From: Brevundimonas halotolerans | GTDB taxonomy: Bacteria > Pseudomonadota > Alphaproteobacteria > Caulobacterales > Caulobacteraceae | Length of the DNA: 64,000 nucleotides | NCBI RefSeq assembly: GCF_003730275.1 | Contig: NZ_QTTA01000021.1 | Coordinates: 1 to 64,000 of the forward strand | Direction: 5' to 3' | Shown: positions 48,036 through 63,471 of the stretch, piece by piece | Numbering within the stretch: position 1 is the stretch's first letter | How the letters are laid out: each line of letters begins with the position of its first letter | Translations under genes and position numbers: made by a program | Notes under the pieces: model-generated | Databases searched by the model: none | The model's input: the letters and a program-made list of their open reading frames with translations, nothing else | Told to the model about the DNA's origin: nothing

Positions 48036-48111
48036 GCCGCCTTAGCTCAGCCGGTAGAGCATCGCATTCGTAATGCGGGGGTCAGGTGTTCGAGTCACCT
48101 AGGCGGCACCA
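48036..48111 (+). tRNA. tRNA-Thr(CGT), island attachment site
   Basis: Cloverleaf: acceptor GCCGCCT / AGGCGGC, D-arm GCTC...GAGC, anticodon stem TCGCA/TGCGG with loop TTCGTAA (anticodon CGT, reads ACG = Thr), T-arm AGGTG-TTCGAGT-CACCT, discriminator A at 48108 and encoded CCA (48109-48111). Its 3' half (48067-48113) is the left attachment site of the genomic island. Confidence 0.95.
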
Positions 48112-48113
48112 CC
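48067..48113 (+). repeat. attL: 47-bp core in tRNA-Thr 3' end
   Basis: Perfect 47-bp direct repeat shared with 63418-63464, from the anticodon loop through CCA plus two bases. It is the recombination core of the island; position 48114 is the first base that differs from the right copy. Confidence 0.93.
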
Positions 48114-48272: not shown

Positions 48273-49910
48273 TCAGCGAGTCGGCAGGAGGGGCAACCCA
48301 AGCGCCTTTAGAAACTCGTTATGCTTAGTCGCCGCGTCCGAAACGGTCTTTTCGATCGAGACCAACTCCGCGTGCGTCGCGTCCAAGTCGATCTCTTTCT
48401 CTCCCACGGCCGTGCTGATGTACCGTGAGATGTTAAGATTGAAGCCCTCTTCAGCGATCCGCTCCATGCCGACACGCTTGGAATAACGATCTTCCTCGGT
48501 GCGGAATTGGTAGGTGGAGACGATCTTGCCGATGTGATCCGGCGTCCCATTCTTGCCGTCCCCGAGCTTGTTCTGGCGCTTGTCCTTCACGAAGTGCTCG
48601 GCAGCATTGATGAAGAGGACGTCATCGGGCTTTTTGCATTTCTTCAGCACGAGGATGCAGACCGGAATGCCCGTCGAGTAGAACAGGTTGGCAGGCAGGC
48701 CGATAACCGTGTCGATATGGCCATCCTTCAGCAGCTTCGTGCGGATGCGTTCTTCCGCCCCGCCTCTGAACAGCACGCCGTGCGGCAGGATGATTGCCAT
48801 GACACCCTCATCCTTCAGGTAGTGGAAGCCGTGTAGAAGGAATGCAAAGTCCGCAGCCGACTTGGGGGCTAGGCCGTAGTTCTTGAATCGCACATCGTCG
48901 CTCATCGCCTCGGTCGGTTCCCAGCGGAGACTGAAGGGCGGGTTGGCCACGATGGCGTCGAAAGCTGGCTTCTTGGCCGGATTCAACTCGCGCAGGATGT
49001 CCCAGTCATTTGACAGCGTGTCCCCGTGGTAGATTTCGAACTCGGTGTCCTTCACGCCGTGCAACAGCATGTTCATGCGGGCAAGGTTGTAGGTGGTGAT
49101 ATTCTTTTCTTGCCCGTAGATTTTGCCGATGCCGTGCGGCCCCATGCGCTTGCGCACATTCAGCAGCAGCGAACCCGAGCCGCATGCGAAGTCGAGCACG
49201 CTGGCGAGCCGTTCTTTCTTGCCGGTTGCAGGCTCCTGGCTGTCGAGCGTCACGATCGCGGACAGGATGTCTGACACCTGTTGCGGGGTATAGAACTCGC
49301 CCGCCTTCTTTCCGGAGCCGGCGGCGAATTGGCCGATCAGATATTCGTAGGCATCGCCCAGCGCATCCACGTCGGATGAGAAGTCGGCGAGGCCTTTCGC
49401 AATCTCGGTGATAATGGCGCAGAGTTTGGCGTTGCGATCAGCGTAGGACCGGCCGAGCTTTTCTGAGCCAAGATTGATTTCTGAGAAGAGGCCGCCAAAC
49501 GTGCTCTGGAACGACTCGTTTTCGATATATTTGAAGCCCGCTTGTAGGGTGTTCAGCAGTTCGTCGCTCTGCGTCCGCGCCATATGGGCGATGCTGGTCC
49601 AGAGGTGTTCCGGCTTGATGACGTAGTGCGCCTTGAGGCGCATCTGCTTTTCAAAAGCCGCGATATCATCGGGGTTCTCCGCGTACCAAACGGAGAGGGG
49701 CGAGCGCCCGCCGTTGCCGATCGAGTTGGGATCGGGGTAGTCGCGCCCTAGCTCCTTCTTCGCCGCCGCCTCGTAATTGTCAGAGAGGTAGCGAAGAAAC
49801 AGGAAAGACAGCATGTAGTCGCGGAAATCGTCCGCATTCATCGCCCCGCGCAGCGTGTCGGCGATGTTCCAGAGCGTCTTCCCCAGCTGTTTTTGGTTGT
49901 GGTCGTTCAT
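48273..49910 (-). CDS. hsdM: Type I restriction methyltransferase HsdM
   Basis: 545 aa N6-adenine methyltransferase subunit. HsdM N-terminal helical domain, target GEFYTPQQVSDIL (~205-217), SAM motif DFACGSGSLLL (240-250) and catalytic NPPF (323-326). It is the last gene of hsdR-hsdS-prrC-hsdM and overlaps prrC by 4 bp (ATGA), so methylation depends on the same transcript. Confidence 0.95.
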   Translation of the reverse strand: MNDHNQKQLGKTLWNIADTLRGAMNADDFRDYMLSFLFLRYLSDNYEAAAKKELGRDYPDPNSIGNGGRSPLSVWYAENPDDIAAFEKQMRLKAHYVIKPEHLWTSIAHMARTQSDELLNTLQAGFKYIENESFQSTFGGLFSEINLGSEKLGRSYADRNAKLCAIITEIAKGLADFSSDVDALGDAYEYLIGQFAAGSGKKAGEFYTPQQVSDILSAIVTLDSQEPATGKKERLASVLDFACGSGSLLLNVRKRMGPHGIGKIYGQEKNITTYNLARMNMLLHGVKDTEFEIYHGDTLSNDWDILRELNPAKKPAFDAIVANPPFSLRWEPTEAMSDDVRFKNYGLAPKSAADFAFLLHGFHYLKDEGVMAIILPHGVLFRGGAEERIRTKLLKDGHIDTVIGLPANLFYSTGIPVCILVLKKCKKPDDVLFINAAEHFVKDKRQNKLGDGKNGTPDHIGKIVSTYQFRTEEDRYSKRVGMERIAEEGFNLNISRYISTAVGEKEIDLDATHAELVSIEKTVSDAATKHNEFLKALGLPLLPTR

Positions 49911-51136
49911 TGTACTTGGGCTTCCTGGGCGACGGGCGCTGGCGCCGGGGCGGGGTGCGGTGCCGGAGCGGCGCCTGGCAGGTGGAACTCGAAGCGCGTT
50001 ACGAACTCGCGAAGTATACGGCGAAACAGTTCCTTGTTGTCCTCGCCCATCTCCGTGGGTTCATGGATGGCGTAGGCGCCGTGGCTGAGGAGATTTAGCG
50101 CACGGTTGAACAGTGCCCGATCTTCGTCGTTGTCCAGTGCCCTCAGGCAAAAGGAGATGCTCGGGTGTCCGAAAAAGGACGCTGTCTTCTCCATAACGCT
50201 GCGCAGGGCATTGAAGTGGAAGGTGTAGAGCTTTCCCTTCTTCGGATCGGCCGCGCGCTGCAATTCGGCGAGCGTCGCCACATGATGAAAGAAGGGCGTA
50301 TCTTCTGTCGCCTGAAGCGTGTAGGTGCCGTCGCCGCTTGGGCGGTGCAGGAAATAGCGCCGATGGTCGACCGACGGTAAGTCATCAGTCTTTCTGCCGA
50401 CTTCGTTGCACATGACGTTGAAGAACAGCGCGTGATGGGACGAGAAGATCACCTTTATGGGGGCCGGCTCACCGTCGGCATTTTTTCGCGTTGCCGCCCG
50501 GCGGAGGAGCTTGGCGAGATCGCAGGCGACGGAGATCGCGTTGTTGTCATCCAGCGACGAGATCGGGTCGTCGATATAGAGGTATTTCCTGCCCTGATAG
50601 GATTGATTGCCATCCAGCATGCGTTCGCAGATCGCCATGAACACGCACCAGATAAAGATGTTCTGCTCGCCGCGCGACACCTTGATGTTGGTCTCCGCGC
50701 CTTTGCTGAAGCTCACATAGTCCGGCTTGGAAACGGTTTCCTTCCCTTGCCGGACCTCCTTGTAGGCGAAGTCGAAATCGAAATCGGCGTAGCGCGAAAG
50801 ATATTGGGCGATCGTCTGGTCGAGCGCGAGTTCCGTCATCGCGTTGAAGAAGGACGACTTCTCGTTCAATTGCAGGCGGCGCACGCTGTCGCCTTCAAGG
50901 TCATTTTCCCAGACGAACAGATCCTCGGTGAAGGCGTTGAAATAAAGCGTGTCCGGCGTTCCGGTCGGGTTCCTCTTGTTCTTGCGTTTCCCCGCGTCTT
51001 TGAACTCCATCGACAAGCGGGTCTTACCCGTGCGGTTGTAAGCGTATATCAATAGCAGAGAGGCTGGTCCTGTGGGATTGTTCAGATCGTCACGAAGCCG
51101 GGCCACCAGGCTTTTCAGGTTTTTGTAGGTGCTCAT
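49907..51136 (-). CDS. prrC: PrrC-type anticodon nuclease embedded in the hsd operon
   Basis: 409 aa. ABC-type ATPase: Walker A YAYNRTGKT (31-39), FNAFTEDLFVWENDL, signature-like SRGEQ (154-158), Walker B/D-loop YLYIDDPISSLDD (185-197). The C-terminal nuclease region retains the catalytic triad known from E. coli PrrC as Arg312, Glu316 (LRSVMEKTASFFGH) and His352 (SHGAYA). PrrC cleaves tRNA-Lys in the anticodon loop when the type I enzyme it rides on is disabled by a phage. The Pro/Ala tail (~389-409) is extra. Overlaps hsdS (upstream) and hsdM (downstream) by 4 bp each. Confidence 0.92.
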   Translation of the reverse strand: MSTYKNLKSLVARLRDDLNNPTGPASLLLIYAYNRTGKTRLSMEFKDAGKRKNKRNPTGTPDTLYFNAFTEDLFVWENDLEGDSVRRLQLNEKSSFFNAMTELALDQTIAQYLSRYADFDFDFAYKEVRQGKETVSKPDYVSFSKGAETNIKVSRGEQNIFIWCVFMAICERMLDGNQSYQGRKYLYIDDPISSLDDNNAISVACDLAKLLRRAATRKNADGEPAPIKVIFSSHHALFFNVMCNEVGRKTDDLPSVDHRRYFLHRPSGDGTYTLQATEDTPFFHHVATLAELQRAADPKKGKLYTFHFNALRSVMEKTASFFGHPSISFCLRALDNDEDRALFNRALNLLSHGAYAIHEPTEMGEDNKELFRRILREFVTRFEFHLPGAAPAPHPAPAPAPVAQEAQVQ

Positions 51137-52425
51137 GCGCCAACCTCCCCAACTTGGGGGAAAAGCTGCTGCATCAGGCCCTTCTTGTGAGTCTTGAGCG
51201 TGTCGAGCTTTCGGGTCTCTGCGGCGATGAGGTCGTCAAGGGAGGTGAGGCAGTCCGCGATGCGCTGTTGTTCCGGCGGCTTTGGAACAAAGAATTTATA
51301 CCGCAGGAACTGCGAGCCATTTATTGAGTTGATGGTAGCCCCAAGATCACCGGCGACCTGCTTCTGATATCTTGAAGTTTGGAAAAGCTGAAAGGCGAAC
51401 TTCGGCGTCTTTGAGCGGAAAACGGTCATGAATGCGCCATGGGTGCAGAGCGGCATTCCTTCTGGAATTAATGCCGTCTTACCGATTAGGGCTGTTGAAC
51501 CATTTCGTACACAAACCAGAATGTCATTCGGTCTAGAGAGGTTCGCTCTCTTTATGTTCGGGTCAACGTAGACACAATCCTTCAGATCGATTTTCCCACC
51601 TTGGATGTTTGACGAACGCAGGACCAAAAGGCCCTCCTCCTGGACGTCATCAGGGCTGTAGGTTAGCCCAGAAACAAGGTCGCCCAGCGAGTTGAGGCGA
51701 ACCTCCTTCCACTCACCCGCCCCCTCAAACTCAGGGAAGCGGAGGCGGGGTTGGGTTTCGCCTTCCTGTGGGAAAAGCTGTTGCATCAAGCCCTTCTTGT
51801 GGGCCCCTAGCGCCTCTACCTTCTGCCGCTGCGCAGCAATCAGTGCGTCCGCCGAGTCCAGACAGTTGGCGATCTTTTGTTGCTCGGCTTCGTCTGGCCG
51901 CCACGCGTTTGTCGACAAGAACTGAGTGACGGAGATATTGAACCGGCCAGCTCGTGCACCCTCGTTGACCAGCCCTCCCAGCGCTGGATCATGGCTTCCA
52001 GACTCGAAGTACCACTCCCAAAAGGCAGGGTTCTCGCTCGGCTGGAACCGGAAGCACTTATAGATCGGCGAGACAACCCCACCCGAATAGTTCGAAAGCC
52101 GTTTGATCGTGCCGAAACTTGATGCTTTCGTTGTACGGTCGTTGTAGACAAAGTCGTCTTTTCGAATCTTCAGATAGCGGTCGGTCCTGTCACCAGCGAT
52201 CTTCTTTCCAAAATAGTCGCTTTGCAGTACAAGGCCGCGCTCCCCCGAAAGACTCAGAACGTTGTCGGCATCTCCGGTTGTCGCCCTGTCAGTTACTGGC
52301 CTGGCCAGCTTCTGTAGCGAAATCTCCTTCCAACCATCCGCTGTCCGAAACTCCGGAAACCGCAGCCTTGGCACCAGCGTAGCCCCATCGATCGGCTCGG
52401 CAGATGATTTCCCCTTACTGATCAT
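51133..52425 (-). CDS. hsdS: Type I restriction specificity subunit HsdS
   Basis: 430 aa. Two target-recognition domains (~20-180 and ~227-385) each followed by a coiled-coil spacer (EQQKIANCLDSADALIAAQ; EQQRIADCLTSLDDLIAAE) and the same motif HKKGLMQQLFPQ at 209-220 and 413-424. The repeated block is a known place for domain swapping. The start overlaps hsdR by 11 bp. Confidence 0.94.
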   Translation of the reverse strand: MISKGKSSAEPIDGATLVPRLRFPEFRTADGWKEISLQKLARPVTDRATTGDADNVLSLSGERGLVLQSDYFGKKIAGDRTDRYLKIRKDDFVYNDRTTKASSFGTIKRLSNYSGGVVSPIYKCFRFQPSENPAFWEWYFESGSHDPALGGLVNEGARAGRFNISVTQFLSTNAWRPDEAEQQKIANCLDSADALIAAQRQKVEALGAHKKGLMQQLFPQEGETQPRLRFPEFEGAGEWKEVRLNSLGDLVSGLTYSPDDVQEEGLLVLRSSNIQGGKIDLKDCVYVDPNIKRANLSRPNDILVCVRNGSTALIGKTALIPEGMPLCTHGAFMTVFRSKTPKFAFQLFQTSRYQKQVAGDLGATINSINGSQFLRYKFFVPKPPEQQRIADCLTSLDDLIAAETRKLDTLKTHKKGLMQQLFPQVGEVGA

Positions 52426-55400
52426 AAGCGCTCAGCCCTGAAACCTCGCGCCCAGCCGCCCGCTTCAGCAGCAGCGGCATCAGGTCGGCCATCAAGTCCA
52501 GTTCCTTCACCCGCCGCGTCTTCCAGTTCAGGCCGAGAGGTTCCATCAGGTCGGTGAGCGCCTCACCGTCAAAGATCATGCGTTGCAGGATGGTATCGAC
52601 AAAGCCTTGCAGCGCCTCGGTGGCCAGCCCGTGCTTGCCAGCGATGCCTGCCAGCTCCGCCGCATTCTTCTCCGTTTTGAAGCGACTGTAGCCTTCGCGG
52701 ATGGCCTTTTCGCTCAAGCCCTCGCCCGCCTTCAGGGTGTTGATATAGGCCGCGATATCCTCGCGCTCGTCCATGAACTTGGCATCGGACTGGATCAGGC
52801 CGATCAGCTCTGCGCTGCTCATCTTCTGCTTGCCGGGCGCGCTTTCCGAATAGCGGGCGATCAGACCCATGATGTAGTCATAGTCGATGACAGCCGAGGC
52901 GAAGAGAACGAACTCGAAGTCCAGTTGGTCGGCGTCTTGGCTTGGCTTGCCATCGCCCTGATCTTGGCGGTTGCCCTGCTGCGCGCGGAGGCGCTGGGCG
53001 GTTTCGAGGTATGCGCCACGGAAGCCCAGAAGGTTGTCGCGGGGCAGAACCTGTTCGATGGCGTTGCGGTTTTCGTCGGTCAGGTCGGTATACTGATCGA
53101 GTTGGGTCTTTAGGCGCTGAACCTCTTTGAAATGCTCGATGAACGCTGCGCGAGCTGCGTCGCCCTTGAGGTTCGGCACCGCTTCGGGGGCACAATCGAG
53201 ACCTTGCGACTCCATGAAGGCGTCGAGCTTTTGGACGGCAGCTTCCAGCTTATGGATGACCACCGGGGCCTTATCGACCAGCCAGATTTCGCGCGCCTTT
53301 TCGCCGGCGGCCTCCCCTGAAAAAAGGGCAATGGCAGCATCCACTGCGCCCTGCTGCTGGCGAAAATCAAGGATGTTGCCATAGGGCTTGGTCGCGTTCA
53401 GCACGCGGTTCGTGCGCGAGAAGGCCTGGATCAGCCCGTGATGCTTCAGGTTCTTGTCGACGTAGAGGGTGTTCAGAAATTTTGAGTCAAAGCCCGTCAG
53501 TAACATGTCCACCACGATCGTGATGTCGATCTTGTGGTGCGGTTGGTTGGGGTAGGCCTTCTTGAGATCGGCATCCGGCCATTGCTGATCTTTGATGCGC
53601 TTCTGCACGTCCTGATAATAGAGATCGAATTCACCGATCTTGTGATTGGTGCCGTACTGGGCGTTGTAGTCGGCGAGGATGGCCTTCAGCGCTTCCTTCT
53701 TTTTTTCAGGCTCGACTGCGTTGTCTTCCTTCTCCTGCGGCAGGTCTTCCTGGATCTGCTTCACATCAGGATCGCCGTCAGCCGGCGGGGAGAAGACGCA
53801 GGCGATGTTCAGCGGCCGGAAGCCGGGATCAGCGGCTAGTTTCTCGGCCTGCATGGCCTTGAAGAGGGCGTGATATTCGATGGCGTCATTGATCGACGAC
53901 GTGGCGAGCAAGGCATTAAACCGGCGCTGCCCGGTGGCCGCGTCGTGCTTGGCGAGAATCGCCTCGATCACCGCCCGCTTGGCCAGCGGTTCGCCCGGCT
54001 TGGGCACGGTCTTGCCCTGCGGCTTGTAATAGTCGACGTGGAACCGCAGGACGTTGCCGTCTTCGATCGCATGCGTGATCGTGTAGGTGTGAAGACGCTG
54101 TTGGAAGAGGTCTTCCGTCGTCTTCATGCTGGCCTGCGTGTCCTCGATTTTCTGCTGGGCAGCGTTCTGATCGAAGATGGGGGTTCCCGTGAAGCCGAAA
54201 AGCTGGGCACGCGGGAAGAATTCCTTAATGGCCTTGTGGTTCTCGCCGAACTGCGAGCGGTGGCATTCGTCGAAGATGAAGGCAATGCGCTTGTCGCGAA
54301 GGGGTTCGAGCTGTTCCTTGAAGCTCTTCTTGCCGTCCTTCTTCTGCTGCTTGTTACGCTTGCTATTTTCGTCCAGCGCCAAGCCCAGCTTCTGGATCGT
54401 GCAGACGATGACCTTATCGGCGTAGTTATGCGAGAGGAGGCGGCGAACGAGGGAGGCGGTGTTGGTGTTCTCCTCGACGCAGCCCTCCTGAAACTTGTTG
54501 AACTCTTCACGCGTCTGCCGGTCGAGGTCCTTGCGGTCCACCACGAAAAGACATTTCTCGATGTCGGGATTGTCCTTCAGGAGCGTAGACGCCTTGAAGG
54601 AGGTGAGCGTCTTCCCGCTTCCCGTAGTGTGCCAGATGTAGCCGTTGCCGCAGTCTTGGGCGATCGAATCGATGATCGCCTTCACCGCGTACACTTGATA
54701 GGGGCGCATCATCAGGAGCTTTTGCTCGCTAGCGACCAGAACCATATAGCGGCTGATTGTCTGGCCGAGATTGCACTTCCCAAGGAAAGTCTCGGCGAAG
54801 CCGTCGAGATGAACGACCTTCTTGTTGTCTATATCCGCAAACTCATAGACCGGCAGGAAGCGCTCTTCGGCATTGAACGCGAAATGGCGCGCATTGTTGT
54901 TTGCGAAGTAGAACGTCCGATCGCGGTTGCTCACAATGAACAACTGCAGAAAACACAAGATTGTCTTGGAATAGCCGTTTCCGGGATCATTCTTGTACTC
55001 GACGATCTGCTCCATGGCACGTCGAGGGCTTATGCCGAGGGTTTTCAGTTCGACCTGAACGACCGGCACCCCGTTGATCAGGAGAATGACGTCGTAGCGA
55101 TGGTGGCTGTTGTCCGTGTTGATGCGGAGCTGGTTGACCACCTCGAAGGAATTTTTGCACCAGTCCCTGATGTTGACGAGCGTATAGTTCAGCGGCGTTC
55201 CATCATCTCGGACGAAACTATTGCGCTCGCGCAGCGTCCGGGCGGCGGTGTAGACATCCGGCGTTACAATCTCGTCCAGCAGGCGCTGGAACTCGCTGTC
55301 GGTCAGGGTGACACAGTTCAGCGCTTCAAACTTTTCTCTGAAGTTCGCCTCAAGCGCGTATCGATCGCGGATGTCCGCTCGGAGCTCATATTTCAGGTCG

Positions 55401-55456
55401 CGCAGCTTCGAAAGAAGCATGTCTTCGAGCTGTCGCTCCGTCGTGATCATCGCCAT
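52415..55456 (-). CDS. hsdR: Type I restriction endonuclease/translocase HsdR
   Basis: 1013 aa. N-terminal PD-(D/E)xK nuclease (Asp122, Glu136-x-Lys138 in YDVILLINGVPVVQVELKT), helicase Walker A TGSGKT (278-283), Walker B DECHRS, and later motifs (DMLLTGFDS, QAFSRTNR). First gene of the hsd operon. Overlaps hsdS by 11 bp. A possible second ATG two codons on. Confidence 0.95.
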   Translation of the reverse strand: MAMITTERQLEDMLLSKLRDLKYELRADIRDRYALEANFREKFEALNCVTLTDSEFQRLLDEIVTPDVYTAARTLRERNSFVRDDGTPLNYTLVNIRDWCKNSFEVVNQLRINTDNSHHRYDVILLINGVPVVQVELKTLGISPRRAMEQIVEYKNDPGNGYSKTILCFLQLFIVSNRDRTFYFANNNARHFAFNAEERFLPVYEFADIDNKKVVHLDGFAETFLGKCNLGQTISRYMVLVASEQKLLMMRPYQVYAVKAIIDSIAQDCGNGYIWHTTGSGKTLTSFKASTLLKDNPDIEKCLFVVDRKDLDRQTREEFNKFQEGCVEENTNTASLVRRLLSHNYADKVIVCTIQKLGLALDENSKRNKQQKKDGKKSFKEQLEPLRDKRIAFIFDECHRSQFGENHKAIKEFFPRAQLFGFTGTPIFDQNAAQQKIEDTQASMKTTEDLFQQRLHTYTITHAIEDGNVLRFHVDYYKPQGKTVPKPGEPLAKRAVIEAILAKHDAATGQRRFNALLATSSINDAIEYHALFKAMQAEKLAADPGFRPLNIACVFSPPADGDPDVKQIQEDLPQEKEDNAVEPEKKKEALKAILADYNAQYGTNHKIGEFDLYYQDVQKRIKDQQWPDADLKKAYPNQPHHKIDITIVVDMLLTGFDSKFLNTLYVDKNLKHHGLIQAFSRTNRVLNATKPYGNILDFRQQQGAVDAAIALFSGEAAGEKAREIWLVDKAPVVIHKLEAAVQKLDAFMESQGLDCAPEAVPNLKGDAARAAFIEHFKEVQRLKTQLDQYTDLTDENRNAIEQVLPRDNLLGFRGAYLETAQRLRAQQGNRQDQGDGKPSQDADQLDFEFVLFASAVIDYDYIMGLIARYSESAPGKQKMSSAELIGLIQSDAKFMDEREDIAAYINTLKAGEGLSEKAIREGYSRFKTEKNAAELAGIAGKHGLATEALQGFVDTILQRMIFDGEALTDLMEPLGLNWKTRRVKELDLMADLMPLLLKRAAGREVSGLSAYDQ

Positions 55457-58617: not shown

Positions 58618-60261
58618 ATGGGACTTCGACCCAAGCCCAGCCCGCCTCCGCCCAGTCTTCGGGTCCCACCGCCCCCGCCCTCGATGCCTGTGAAAGAGGT
58701 AGAGGGGGAAGCCCCTCTCGTCGCCGCAACGCTCCCCTCTCCCCCTTTGCAGACACCCATGGCCAGCAGCGCCCTCGCTGTCGTCGTCACGCATCCCGAA
58801 GCGATCTTCCCGGCAAAACTGATCGTCCAGATCACGCCCGGTGAAGAGCACCTCGCTGTGTTTGAGGCTGAACGCGTCTTGGCCGAAACGGGACTGTACT
58901 ACGTCTCAGGGGGCCAGCTGGCTCGGCTGGTCCCGACCGCAGGCTCGATGCAGTGCGAAGTCGTCAACTCGCAGACGCTGTACGTGGTCATGTCAGAGAT
59001 GATCGAGTGGCAGCGTCCGAACTCGAAGGGGGAGTGGGTCACGTGCAATCCGCCCCATCACCTCCTCAACACCTTGATCTACACTCAGGACCGCAAATAC
59101 CTGCAGACGCTCATGGGTATAGCCCATCAGCCCTATTTCGACGCCAACGAGCAGTTGGTCACGACGCCCGGTTTCAACTCAACGACCGGCATTTACGCCA
59201 GCTTCGGCGCCAACGAGTATGCGATTTCTGCACCTACGGAGGAGGATGCCCAGCTGAGCCTGATGGCGCTGAAAGCAGAACTGGCGGAGTTTGAGTTCGA
59301 AAAGGCGGAGGATCTGTCTGCGGCCCTGTGTGCGATGCTCACAGCCGCTATTCGTCCAGGCCTTCCTTTGGCGCCCGCATTCAACTTCAACGCCGCCTCG
59401 TCAGGCAGCGGAAAGAGCTTTCTGGCCGGCCTCGTCGTGCTCTTCGCCACGCCGTTGCATCCGTATGTTACCAGCTATCCCACGACCGCTACCGAAGCCA
59501 TCAAGGTGATTCTGGCCATGCTATTGGAGAAGCCGCCGGTCATCCTCTTCGACGATATGCAGACTGACTGGAAGCCTTTCGGTGCCATCAACAAGGCGCT
59601 CACCAGCCACACCACCACCGAGCGCCTCCTTGGCAAAAGCGGCACCGCGACAGCGCGGACGAACTCCCTATTCCTCGGAACGGGGAACAATACAGGCCCG
59701 ATCAAAGATATGCGTCGGCGCGTGGTGACCGCGCGGCTCGCCGCCAAATCCAGCCTGCGGACTTTCGAACGCAACCCCCAGAAGCAAATATCGAAACACC
59801 GCTCCGTCTATGTCGGCTTTGCTCTGACCATCATCCAGGCCTTCCTGCTCCACGGGAAGCGTGACGACACCCTCACATCGATCGGCTCATATGAGGACTG
59901 GTCGAGGTTCTGCCGCGAACCCCTCATCTGGCTGGGTGAGCCAGACCCGGCCTTAAGCCTGATCAATCAGGTCAAAGACAACACAGACGATGAAGCGTTG
60001 GCGGTGCTCCTGAAGCTGTGGCGTGACCTCTACCACGATGAGTCAATGACTGTCCGCGAACTCCTTTCTGAAGCCCCGAGAAAGCCGAAGCTTCAGGAAA
60101 TCATCGACGAGATCCTCGGCGTCGAACGCGGAGCCAGCCCCCCGCACCTGCTGGGGCAATATCTCAAGCGCCACCGTGGTGTCCGGGTGAACGGACTGCG
60201 CATTGAAGACGGGTACAGCTCCGAGCGTAAGGCTTGGCGCGTCCTGACGGACTACGAGTAG
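58618..60261 (+). CDS. D5-like primase-helicase (replication protein)
   Basis: 547 aa. A Pro-rich leader (~1-48), a region with GIAHQPYFDANEQLVTTPGF and TGIYASF (~167-196) seen in phage/island helicases, Walker A ASSGSGKSF (260-268) and Walker B VILFDDM (308-314). No TOPRIM or PrimPol motif is visible, so it may be the helicase half only. GAGG 8 nt before ATG. It could replicate the excised island. Confidence 0.72.
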   Translation: MGLRPKPSPPPPSLRVPPPPPSMPVKEVEGEAPLVAATLPSPPLQTPMASSALAVVVTHPEAIFPAKLIVQITPGEEHLAVFEAERVLAETGLYYVSGGQLARLVPTAGSMQCEVVNSQTLYVVMSEMIEWQRPNSKGEWVTCNPPHHLLNTLIYTQDRKYLQTLMGIAHQPYFDANEQLVTTPGFNSTTGIYASFGANEYAISAPTEEDAQLSLMALKAELAEFEFEKAEDLSAALCAMLTAAIRPGLPLAPAFNFNAASSGSGKSFLAGLVVLFATPLHPYVTSYPTTATEAIKVILAMLLEKPPVILFDDMQTDWKPFGAINKALTSHTTTERLLGKSGTATARTNSLFLGTGNNTGPIKDMRRRVVTARLAAKSSLRTFERNPQKQISKHRSVYVGFALTIIQAFLLHGKRDDTLTSIGSYEDWSRFCREPLIWLGEPDPALSLINQVKDNTDDEALAVLLKLWRDLYHDESMTVRELLSEAPRKPKLQEIIDEILGVERGASPPHLLGQYLKRHRGVRVNGLRIEDGYSSERKAWRVLTDYE

Positions 60262-60563
60262 CCAGCTTCCCTTCAGCCCAGCCAACTCGGGCCGGCGCAA
60301 AGTGGAAAAGAGGTAGTTCCCCTTTCCCCCTTTGATTGCGGCGCGGCGCTCGTCACCCACGCCCCAAACGCGGCCCCCTGAGGCCCGCTCCGGGCTCCCC
60401 ATGGCCCGACCCCATCCCCGCCCCCGACGCGTGGCCCCTGCGGCTCAGTCTGGGGCAACGCGGGCCTGACCCGCTCAACACCACCCCCACCCCAACCGGC
60501 TGCCCTTCTGGGCGGCCTGACGACACTCGCCCGTCGATCATCAAACACGCAAGGAAACTACAC
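60262..60563. other. 302-bp non-coding gap before the integrase
   Basis: No gene seen. It holds a GGAAAAGAGG...CCCCTTTCC inverted pair near 60301-60328 and a GC-rich stretch. The integrase promoter and possible Int/Xis sites should lie here, but I see no clear -10/-35. Confidence 0.4.
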
Positions 60564-61715
60564 ATGCCCAAGGCACACCTGACTCAGGCCTTCGTCGACA
60601 AGGCTGGTTGCGAAGTCGGCAAGAACAAGACCGACTACTACGACACCATTATCCCGGGTTTCATGCTGGAGCGCCGTTCCAGCGGCAAAGGCACCTACTC
60701 GTTACGCTACAATGATCTGAGCGGCCGTCAGAGGCAGCACAAGATCGGCGGCGTTGATGACGTCACATGCGCTGCGGCCAGGAAAAGGGCTCAGCAACTG
60801 AGATCGGAAGTGGTCATGGGCGGCGACCCCGGCGCAACGAAGGCGCTGGCGAAGTCCATACCCCTCTACGGCGAACTGGCCGCCAAGCACCTTGAGTCCT
60901 TTAGGGGTCGGAAGTCCTACGAGGATGTCGAAAGTGTCATGCGCGTGCATGTCCTTCCGAGGTGGGGAAAGACGCGCCTGACGGACATGAACAGCCGGTC
61001 TGTGGCCCAATGGCTGGACGAGAAACGATCGAAGGGCTTGGCACCGGCGACGGTGGAAAAAATGCGCGTGATCCTCGGTCGGTCATTCGTGCTGGGCGCT
61101 AGCTGGGACATCCCGGGCACTGAAAAGAACCCGGCCCGAAACATACCACGAGCGCCACTAAACAACGCCCGCGAACGGTTCCTGACGGGGGAAGAGGCAG
61201 TAAGGCTGAAGGAAGCGGTCGCGGCTTCCAACAACCCTCAGCTTCAGCACATTGTCGGGCTGCTCCTTCTTACAGGAGCCCGGCTGCGCGAGCTGCTCGA
61301 TGCTGAGTGGAAAAACGTGGATGTCGAACGTCGATCGTGGTTCATCCCCGACAGTAAGACCGGCAAGTCGCGCTACGTCCCGCTTTCAACGCCCGCCGTG
61401 GCGATCATTGAGGCGCTGCCGCGCTTCAAGGGCTGCCCATGGTTGGTGCCGAACCCGGACACCCGGAAGCCTTATGTCTCCGTAAAAGGAACGTGGGGGA
61501 CGGCGATAAAGGCCGCAAAACTGCCGGGCTTACGGCTGCATGATCTGCGGCACTCGGCGGCGTCTTTCATGGTGAACAGCGGTGTAGACCTGTTCGCCGT
61601 TGGCAAGGTGCTAGGCCACGCCAACTATCAGAGCACGCAAAGGTACGCTCACCTCGCCAACGACACCCTTCTGAAGGCGGTCGAGGCAGGAGCGGCCAAG
61701 CAGTCGGCCTTCTGA
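60564..61715 (+). CDS. Tyrosine recombinase (island integrase)
   Basis: 383 aa. Catalytic residues Arg240 (TGARLREL), Lys265, His326 and Arg329 (HDLRH), His352 (LGHANY) and Tyr361 (QRYAHL) are all present. N-terminal arm-binding region and core-binding helices. It integrates the island at tRNA-Thr. AAGGAA 7 nt before ATG. Strong terminator downstream. Confidence 0.95.
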   Translation: MPKAHLTQAFVDKAGCEVGKNKTDYYDTIIPGFMLERRSSGKGTYSLRYNDLSGRQRQHKIGGVDDVTCAAARKRAQQLRSEVVMGGDPGATKALAKSIPLYGELAAKHLESFRGRKSYEDVESVMRVHVLPRWGKTRLTDMNSRSVAQWLDEKRSKGLAPATVEKMRVILGRSFVLGASWDIPGTEKNPARNIPRAPLNNARERFLTGEEAVRLKEAVAASNNPQLQHIVGLLLLTGARLRELLDAEWKNVDVERRSWFIPDSKTGKSRYVPLSTPAVAIIEALPRFKGCPWLVPNPDTRKPYVSVKGTWGTAIKAAKLPGLRLHDLRHSAASFMVNSGVDLFAVGKVLGHANYQSTQRYAHLANDTLLKAVEAGAAKQSAF

Positions 61716-61811: not shown

Positions 61812-63155
61812 TCAAGCTTCACCTTCGGCTTCCGGCAAGGGCATCGCTAGCTTTGACAGGCGATCCGCAGCCTCTCTCGCGACGCGCTGACCAGCAGACC
61901 AAGCGTAGAGGATTGACCAATCTTCCGCGAGATAGAACTCGCCGCCTAGCTTCTCAGCGCCATCGTCGACTAGCCTTGCCTTCATTGCGTCCTCACCTGC
62001 CCGAGCAACGTCGCCGCAGGGCCACGGGGCAGTTGCGTAAGGGTCATCAGGCTTGAAAACTTTCCACACATAACAGCCCTCAGGATACGCCCATTGAACT
62101 TGGTCGCGACGGGCAAGGGGACTCTTAGAGAATCCAACCTTGATGATCTTTCGATCGCCAATCTCAGCCGCCGATCGGCCGAGCCAGACCGACAGATCGC
62201 CTTCCAGCGTGAAGATGTAGAGGTGACGAGGCCCATCGGGTTCACCAACCCAGAAAGGACGGGTAGCCACCGGTCCGGCACGGCCGCTCGAAACGGAGCG
62301 TTCAAGGGTTGTGATCGAGGCGTCGATCTCACCAGATCGCCCATAGACGGGAACTTCGTAGACATCGAGGGCGAGAAGTGCGCCGGCTTCCTCCGACGGC
62401 ACAGCCACCCCGTCAGAGCCGATGTACTGAGGGTCCGCGCTGGCATAGGCGGACGGTAGTATTTCTTCGATCGGTCTCCAATCCTCGGGCACTACACGCC
62501 AAGCTCGAGTTGCCCTGACCGCGTAGGACCACTTGCCGCGTGAGTCGGGATCAGCTTCTTTCTTTGCCCATCGGTCACCGGCGATGAACGCCTGTGCAGG
62601 GCCTACCTCGTGCGAAACCTCGAGAATGCCGACGAGTTTGCCGCGCATCCCTTCAGGGCCCTTACCCTTGGTGACGTAGATGGCGACCAACACGCCTGGC
62701 CGGGTAGCCCTAAGGAAGTTGTTCCGCTTAGCCTCGCTTGCGAAGCCTATGCAGCCCCAATCAGCCGGATCGAACCCCCAAAACGAGGTCAGCCACACCT
62801 GCCGACCGTCGGGCAGTTCGTCTGGCCGTGACGCCAATTCTGGTATGACCGACCAATCGAAGCCAAAGACGCGTTCTTGCTCGGCTTGGACGTCGATATC
62901 TCCAAGCCTCGCGCGGATATGGGCCATGGCGTCCTCATCAGGTCGAGTCTTGCCCTTGGGAACTAGGATGAGGGTTAGGGGCGGCAGACCTCGGTCTGCC
63001 AACTCGTGGAGGATGACTTCGAGGTGACGTCCAAGGCCTCTCCCGGTCGGATGTCCCCACCCGACTTGGTCCGCGACCATTTGGTAGGTCACCCGGCTGC
63101 GCTGCATGGCCTTGGCTGCCAAATAGCGCGCGATTTGGGTTTCAATGACGTCCAT
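61812..63155 (-). CDS. Candidate modification-dependent nuclease: EVE-like plus GIY-YIG-like
   Basis: 447 aa. (1) N-terminus ~1-100: helical, VTYQMVADQVGWG...GRGLGRHL and GLPPLTLILVPKGK, a pattern I recall from N-termini of various restriction-type proteins. (2) ~118-235: WLTSFWGFDPADWGC...GVLVAIYVTKGK...GKLVGILEVSHE...YAVRATRAWRV, which looks like an EVE/PUA-type modified-base pocket (inference). (3) ~310-412: LYIFTLEGD, KIIKVGFSKSPLARRDQ, GEDAMKARL, GGEFYLAE, resembling T5orf172/MUG113 GIY-YIG nucleases, with Arg349/350, Glu388 and Glu406 as possible active-site residues. ATG 63155 chosen. It lies between the integrase terminator and attR on the opposite strand. Confidence 0.6.
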   Translation of the reverse strand: MDVIETQIARYLAAKAMQRSRVTYQMVADQVGWGHPTGRGLGRHLEVILHELADRGLPPLTLILVPKGKTRPDEDAMAHIRARLGDIDVQAEQERVFGFDWSVIPELASRPDELPDGRQVWLTSFWGFDPADWGCIGFASEAKRNNFLRATRPGVLVAIYVTKGKGPEGMRGKLVGILEVSHEVGPAQAFIAGDRWAKKEADPDSRGKWSYAVRATRAWRVVPEDWRPIEEILPSAYASADPQYIGSDGVAVPSEEAGALLALDVYEVPVYGRSGEIDASITTLERSVSSGRAGPVATRPFWVGEPDGPRHLYIFTLEGDLSVWLGRSAAEIGDRKIIKVGFSKSPLARRDQVQWAYPEGCYVWKVFKPDDPYATAPWPCGDVARAGEDAMKARLVDDGAEKLGGEFYLAEDWSILYAWSAGQRVAREAADRLSKLAMPLPEAEGEA

Positions 63156-63471
63156 GACACCCCGTCTCCCCTGCAATACTGTCTCTCTGACCTCTTCACA
63201 GAACCCCAGCCGCTCCACCACCCCGCGCAAGTCTTTTGCAGGTATGGCGCAGGTGGGATTTCGGCCTAGATCTGAGTTAGCGTTCGTTCGCTAGGAAGCG
63301 CGTGCACCACGCGGTCAGGCCAGATTGGGAAATGTATGGGTGGAGGCCCTCGGATGGGTTTAGATTGTCCGTCAAAGCCATGCCGAGCATAGATCTCTCG
63401 GGTTCCTTTCAGTCGTTTTCGTAATGCGGGGGTCAGGTGTTCGAGTCACCTAGGCGGCACCACCTTCTTCC
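63156..63471. other. 316-bp right end of the island, including attR
   Basis: No gene seen. It contains the promoter of the minus-strand nuclease gene, unrecognised, and the attR core at 63418-63464. Confidence 0.5.
63418..63464 (+). repeat. attR: 47-bp copy of tRNA-Thr 3' end
   Basis: Identical to 48067-48113. It lacks the tRNA 5' half, so it is not a functional tRNA. It marks the right boundary; chromosomal sequence resumes at 63465. Confidence 0.93.

Follow-up and report, generated by a model that had tools for sequence, protein, structure and literature searches.

The island and its genes

The stretch of DNA analysed here, referred to below as the window, comprises 64,000 nucleotides of a Brevundimonas halotolerans contig (NZ_QTTA01000021.1). 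Towards its right-hand end lies an island of ~15.4 kb which is bounded by 47-bp att repeats and associated with a tyrosine integrase gene and a tRNA-Thr gene, Table 1. The G+C content of the island is 59% compared with 68% for the window sequence left of it. The gene of interest occupies the end of the island between the integrase gene and attR, as the preliminary description had stated. The same description had treated the gene as isolated cargo and this part did not hold, since the island also contains a type I restriction-modification (R-M) system (hsdM, hsdS and hsdR) and a gene for a PrrC-like ATPase. The mobile island is thus a defence island and not the carrier of a single isolated cargo gene. 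A distance of 6.3 kb, which includes the integrase gene, separates the gene from hsdR, and it shares no operon with the type I genes. Beside the integrase, positions 58618-60261 (+) encode a protein of 547 amino acids which has a P-loop pattern resembling Walker A/B (ASSGSGKS ... VILFDDM) and for which Pfam gave no match.

Table 1. Features of the island and of the EVE-GIY-YIG gene. Coordinates are those of the window.
Feature	Position	Strand	Basis
attL, 47-bp exact repeat	48067..48113	+	3' end of the tRNA-Thr(CGT) gene, 48036-48111
HsdM, type I methyltransferase	48273..49910	-	
PrrC-like ATPase, between hsdM and hsdS	49907..51136	-	PADLOC PrrC E=1.4e-128; Pfam AAA_13
HsdS, type I specificity subunit	51133..52425	-	
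HsdR, type I restriction subunit	52415..55456	-	
Tyrosine integrase	60564..61715	+	ATG at 60564, mechanical ORF 60336-61715; Pfam Phage_integrase 1.2e-27, Arm-DNA-bind_3
EVE-GIY-YIG protein gene (P0001, the window protein)	61812..63155	-	ORF, homologues, dN/dS
T5orf172-type GIY-YIG nuclease domain (predicted)	61920..62234	-	residues ~308-412: Y313, K339-V-G341, R349, E388, E406
Glu406 codon, predicted catalytic/metal-binding glutamate	61938..61940	-	conservation and analogy with Odn
EVE (PUA-superfamily) domain, predicted modified-base reader	62346..62804	-	residues ~118-270; Foldseek, PH1033 hmmsearch, Pfam EVE weak in relatives
All-helical N-terminal module, clade-specific, HTH-like	62805..63155	-	residues ~1-117
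attR, 47-bp exact repeat of the tRNA-Thr 3' end	63418..63464	+	repeat identity

The window protein and its relatives

The open reading frame corresponds exactly to the gene given in Table 1, starts with ATG a few bp downstream of a purine-rich, GGGGAG-like ribosome site and encodes a protein of 447 amino acids. The ratio dN/dS was ~0.17 between the window gene and its close relative L019 and ~0.08 between the relatives L019 and L025, with dS near saturation in both comparisons. These ratios indicate that the gene is under purifying selection in its clade and is not a chance reading frame.

The single sequence had no match to any Pfam or NCBIfam family and PADLOC yielded only noise, including a match to BrxH (E=0.038) that was judged to be due to chance. 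The domain assignment therefore rests on the relatives and on the predicted structure. An AF2 model made from 33 sequences had a mean pLDDT of 83; its pTM of 0.49 leaves the mutual arrangement of the domains uncertain. Together, the relatives and the model bore out the three-part order that had been proposed, namely a helical N-terminus followed by an EVE-like and then a GIY-YIG-like domain.

Scanning genome contigs with the single sequence found no relatives and an alignment-based scan was needed, which gave 32 loci on GTDB contigs. Full-length homologues with 53-61% identity were found in eight other genomes or plasmids (seven GTDB loci and one plasmid). Using tblastn, a full-length homologue of 58% identity was located on a Limimaricola plasmid and a Thioclava homologue of 27% identity was found to be annotated as 'GIY-YIG nuclease family protein'. 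Counting the window's own genome, 13 of 398 genomes of the same order had a match. The remaining relatives share only the EVE-GIY-YIG core (residues ~116-430, 36-50% identity) and begin with different N-termini or with none. In a tree of the core, the window protein falls within a fully supported branch of proteins with the N-terminal module; two members of this branch, L026 and L027, are without it. Aminobacter plasmid pUSP2 carries, in a place with no annotated gene (L004, 4001-4298), a frameshifted remnant with ~53% identity to the GIY-YIG part, a case of gene decay on a plasmid.

The EVE domain

An EVE fold had been proposed for residues ~118-235. When the AF2 model was compared with the PDB using Foldseek, the first four ranks were taken by 2p5d, 1zce, 2gbs and 2ar1 (E values of 2.1e-4 to 0.016), all of them EVE structures and the sole strong matches of the model. 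A genuine Pfam-EVE protein, examined as a family check, also matched 1zce, 2gbs and 2ar1, showing that top matches of this kind mean EVE. An hmmsearch with PH1033 matched the EVE region at E=0.02. Pfam family PF01878 had no match to the window protein itself and its best match among the relatives (E=0.0092), at 16.4 bits, fell short of the cut-off of 23, while alignment with hhalign to canonical EVE domains was weak, 0.8-14%, though the register was sensible. Judged from the model and these searches, the domain is EVE-like by fold and divergent by sequence.

Four tryptophans (W121, W133, W209 and W219) are present in 33/33 close relatives and Y160 in 32/33. Trp133, a candidate for the base pocket, is replaced by D, V or L in 6/16 of the wider relatives. 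No canonical EVE gene (PF01878) was found in the host genome (G000); of 41 genomes sampled from the host's class, 29 have such a gene scoring above the family cut-off.

The GIY-YIG domain

The C-terminal part of the model gave no match to a GIY-YIG structure in the PDB, the EVE part being the only one matched there. In BFVD the best named matches, which are viral models, included T5orf172/GIY-YIG nucleases with probabilities of 0.97-1.00, and the order of strands and helices in the model fits the T5orf172/GIY-YIG fold. Pfam T5orf172 was matched by 10 of 16 homologues, the best E value of 1.7e-4 being above the gathering cut-off; L017 exceeded the gathering score and L013 was at the cut-off. 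When the profile of the C-terminus was aligned with those of YeeC-type T5orf172 proteins, the motifs fell in the right register but at a low probability of 2-4%, so the assignment relies on the fold search and on the Pfam matches in the relatives. On this evidence the T5orf172-type fold put forward in the preliminary description is supported.

Y313, K339, G341 and R349 are invariant in all 33 rows of the alignment of close relatives (A3) and all 16 rows of the wider one (A1). Where the rows extend far enough, position 406 is always glutamate (32/32 in A3 and 15/15 in A1) and E388 is likewise always kept. Conservation of Glu406 and Arg349 among homologues had been suggested as a check on the nuclease and both residues passed it. 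The second Tyr of the canonical GIY-YIG motif is Lys in the window protein, as it is in YeeC-type proteins. The glutamate corresponding to Glu406 is needed for DNA cutting by Odn, the T5orf172 nuclease of phage ICP1 (PMC8263062). In a further protein, L083 (247-1986 +), a related GIY-YIG domain is joined to DUF3427 (E=2.1e-6), which suggests that this nuclease domain may be combined with different front-end domains.

The N-terminal module

The N-terminal module is strongly conserved in the full-length clade, where eight sequences have 44-63% identity to the window protein. Helices are predicted at residues 3-17, 24-31, 43-54, 61-64, 74-84 and 89-96. Foldseek found no match in the PDB for a model of the module, which was of low confidence (pLDDT 67). 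An assignment as an AGT/ATL (alkyltransferase)-like domain with its helix-turn-helix was considered because the order of motifs was suggestive, but is not claimed; hhalign gave a probability of only 29% over 15 columns and no fold in the PDB matched.

A profile of the module also matched L072 (3-1292 +) and L073 (1459-2466 +), in which it precedes nuclease-like C-terminal halves that otherwise differ from that of the window protein; the C-terminal half of L073 weakly matches a restriction-endonuclease-fold family (E=0.003). Its occurrence with different C-terminal halves suggests that the helical segment is probably a shuffled module.

Neighbourhoods of the relatives

An MmeI-like methyltransferase (MTase) is encoded nearby in 18 of the 32 loci, usually directly upstream and with an ATGA-type overlap. 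A DEAD-box helicase is also present in 14 of the 32 and a T5orf172 protein in 13. In the alphaproteobacterial operons that combine these genes, start and stop codons mostly overlap. The complete operon (MmeI-like MTase, EVE-GIY-YIG, DEAD-box helicase, T5orf172 protein) occurs at L028, L030, L031, L037, L039-L041, L043 and L044 and part of it at L029, L032, L035, L042 and L050. The operons of this sister clade, the EVE gene apart, share the gene set of DnmA-YeeB-YeeC, which consists of an MmeI-like MTase, a helicase and a T5orf172 protein and whose DnmA has no nuclease motif (PMC9973331). They differ from it in the additional EVE-GIY-YIG gene, usually placed between the MTase and helicase genes. 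The EVE-GIY-YIG gene in most MTase loci is an extra, translationally coupled gene, usually the second, of a DnmA-YeeB-YeeC-type operon. Among relatives, L028, L030 and L044 are examples with this gene set, whereas the window protein is not encoded in an operon of this kind, the genes of its island being type I hsdMSR and that of the PrrC-like ATPase.

Other neighbours of relatives include Mrr, Gabija, MTases of the C5-cytosine and N6/N4 kinds and a PLD-helicase together with a type ISP MTase. Members of the window protein's own clade mostly have no conserved partner and most differ from one another in their neighbours; L019, for example, adjoins two C5-cytosine MTase-like genes. In two Bradyrhizobium genomes (L023 and L024, 9400-10275 +) a homologous protein, matched by DUF6615 in L023, is encoded 88 bp 3' of the gene.

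The coupled operons raise the question of whether the EVE-GIY-YIG chain acts alone. It might instead be an R-M accessory, with MTase and helicase partners, that checks the modification state of the system's DNA; the partner would be the type I system of the island in the window and the DnmA-YeeB-YeeC-type operon in the sister clade. The frequency of the coupled MmeI-like MTase, followed by the helicase and the T5orf172 protein, is in line with this, as is the type I system in the window's island. Furthermore, no EXK nuclease motif could be recognised in 12 full-length MmeI-like MTases, so that any nuclease action in those systems must come from elsewhere. However, conserved partners are mostly lacking from the window protein's clade, and the distance to hsdR, past the integrase gene, excludes a common operon. 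For the window protein we regard an accessory role as rather unlikely.

Proposed function

The reading we prefer, with a probability of about 0.7, is that the window protein is a single-chain, NTP-independent, modification-dependent restriction endonuclease (MDRE) of a type IV-like kind, which would probably destroy phage DNA containing chemically altered bases. A reader domain and a nuclease in one system, one of the features of type IV enzymes, are both found in the predicted structure. No MTase gene adjoins the window gene, although that of the type I HsdM lies in its island and many relatives have an MmeI-like MTase close by. The defence genes beside the window gene or its relatives (type I R-M, Gabija, Mrr, PLD-helicase, MTase) support a role in restriction. 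From these observations we infer binding of modified bases, DNA cleavage, phage defence and a specificity of the 5mC/5hmC type.

In the mechanism envisaged, the EVE domain would flip a modified base of the invading phage DNA, with cytosine the likeliest candidate, into its pocket, and capture of the base would tether the C-terminal GIY-YIG domain to the target. This domain could then cut nearby using Tyr313, Arg349 and a metal bound at Glu406, and to do so would probably act as a dimer or nick each of the two strands. The N-terminal helical module would probably add a DNA contact, dimerisation or a sequence preference.

Cytosine is favoured as the target since those EVE readers of DNA that have been characterised recognise 5mC/5hmC (PMC7897488, PMC11347163) and the host genome had no match to a C5-cytosine MTase, so a cytosine modification as target would bring no obvious self-conflict. 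The genome did have one N6/N4-MTase match and, given this and the type I MTase, a reader directed broadly at adenine would risk damage to the cell's own DNA. The C5-MTase-like genes adjoining L019 argue against indiscriminate cutting at 5mC.

Two further explanations are much less probable. A toxin-like nuclease directed against RNA (tRNA or mRNA), with the EVE domain recognising a modified ribonucleotide and the GIY-YIG domain as the cutter, could be imagined given that PUA-superfamily domains were first linked to RNA bases (PMC11347163), but this is very improbable as no conserved, paired antitoxin-like gene lies next to the relatives, the neighbours are DNA restriction genes and the T5orf172 nuclease Odn cuts DNA (PMC8263062). 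Equally remote is a role as a selfish nuclease of the homing type belonging to the mobile island: T5orf172 domains are common in homing endonucleases of phages and figure prominently in one study of their genes (PMC10448857), yet no relatives were found in 50,697 phage records (E<=0.01) or in IMG/VR contigs, and fusion to a base reader, residence in MTase/helicase operons and the variety of island contexts all fit homing poorly.

Relation to known systems

The restriction endonuclease proposed here had initially been described as possibly new, which holds only in part. 'Numerous' EVE-GIY-YIG fusions, predicted to be type IV enzymes, were already reported by Bell, Wolf and Koonin in 2020 (PMC7641849) and, going by that account, likewise unite the two core domains in a single chain; MDREs that combine GIY-YIG with a different reader have been characterised. 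What is added to the core is the N-terminal module. The main text of the 2020 paper describes neither this module nor the MmeI-type operons and the term MmeI is absent from it. The window protein is therefore of a known, predicted EVE-GIY-YIG kind with an N-terminal module in addition. A full-text literature search for 'EVE-GIY-YIG' returned no paper and no biochemical test was found in open-access papers.

Among characterised enzymes, the EVE-HNH MDRE VcaM4I, whose pocket residues are P24, W82 and Y130, resembles the window protein in being a single chain with the EVE domain N-terminal to the nuclease and no NTPase domain; the window protein differs in having GIY-YIG in place of HNH and the extra helical module (PMC7897488). 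CMoRE, or PD-T4-3, is also a single-component GIY-YIG nuclease with a sensor of modified cytosine, a sensor only predicted for the window protein, but its GIY-YIG domain is N-terminal with a GIYxY-YIG motif and an inhibitory loop, and its reader has a fold for which no homologues were found and which is not EVE (PMC12923530). With the domain order reversed and EVE as reader, the window protein is not a member of CMoRE. The type IV enzymes Ahi29725I and Apa233I similarly fuse GIY-YIG to a reader of DNA modification, in their case a winged helix (wH) for G6mATC rather than EVE (PMC11037411).

No description of an extra EVE-GIY-YIG gene in DnmA-YeeB-YeeC loci was found in the main texts of the open-access papers searched. 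A defence role for DnmA-YeeB-YeeC is itself disputed, the system being inactive in B. subtilis while effects on phage in Vibrio crassostreae are among the work cited in PMC9973331. As a tentative proposal going beyond the main one, the N-terminal module may be a second DNA reader, so that two features of the target are checked before cutting, and the alphaproteobacterial DnmA-YeeB-YeeC operons with an extra EVE-GIY-YIG core gene might attack unmodified phage DNA as well as phage DNA with the wrong modification.

The window gene offers a compact, single-gene candidate for the predicted EVE-GIY-YIG class with clear predicted catalytic residues. If the enzyme does read modified cytosine, it may find use as a detection enzyme.
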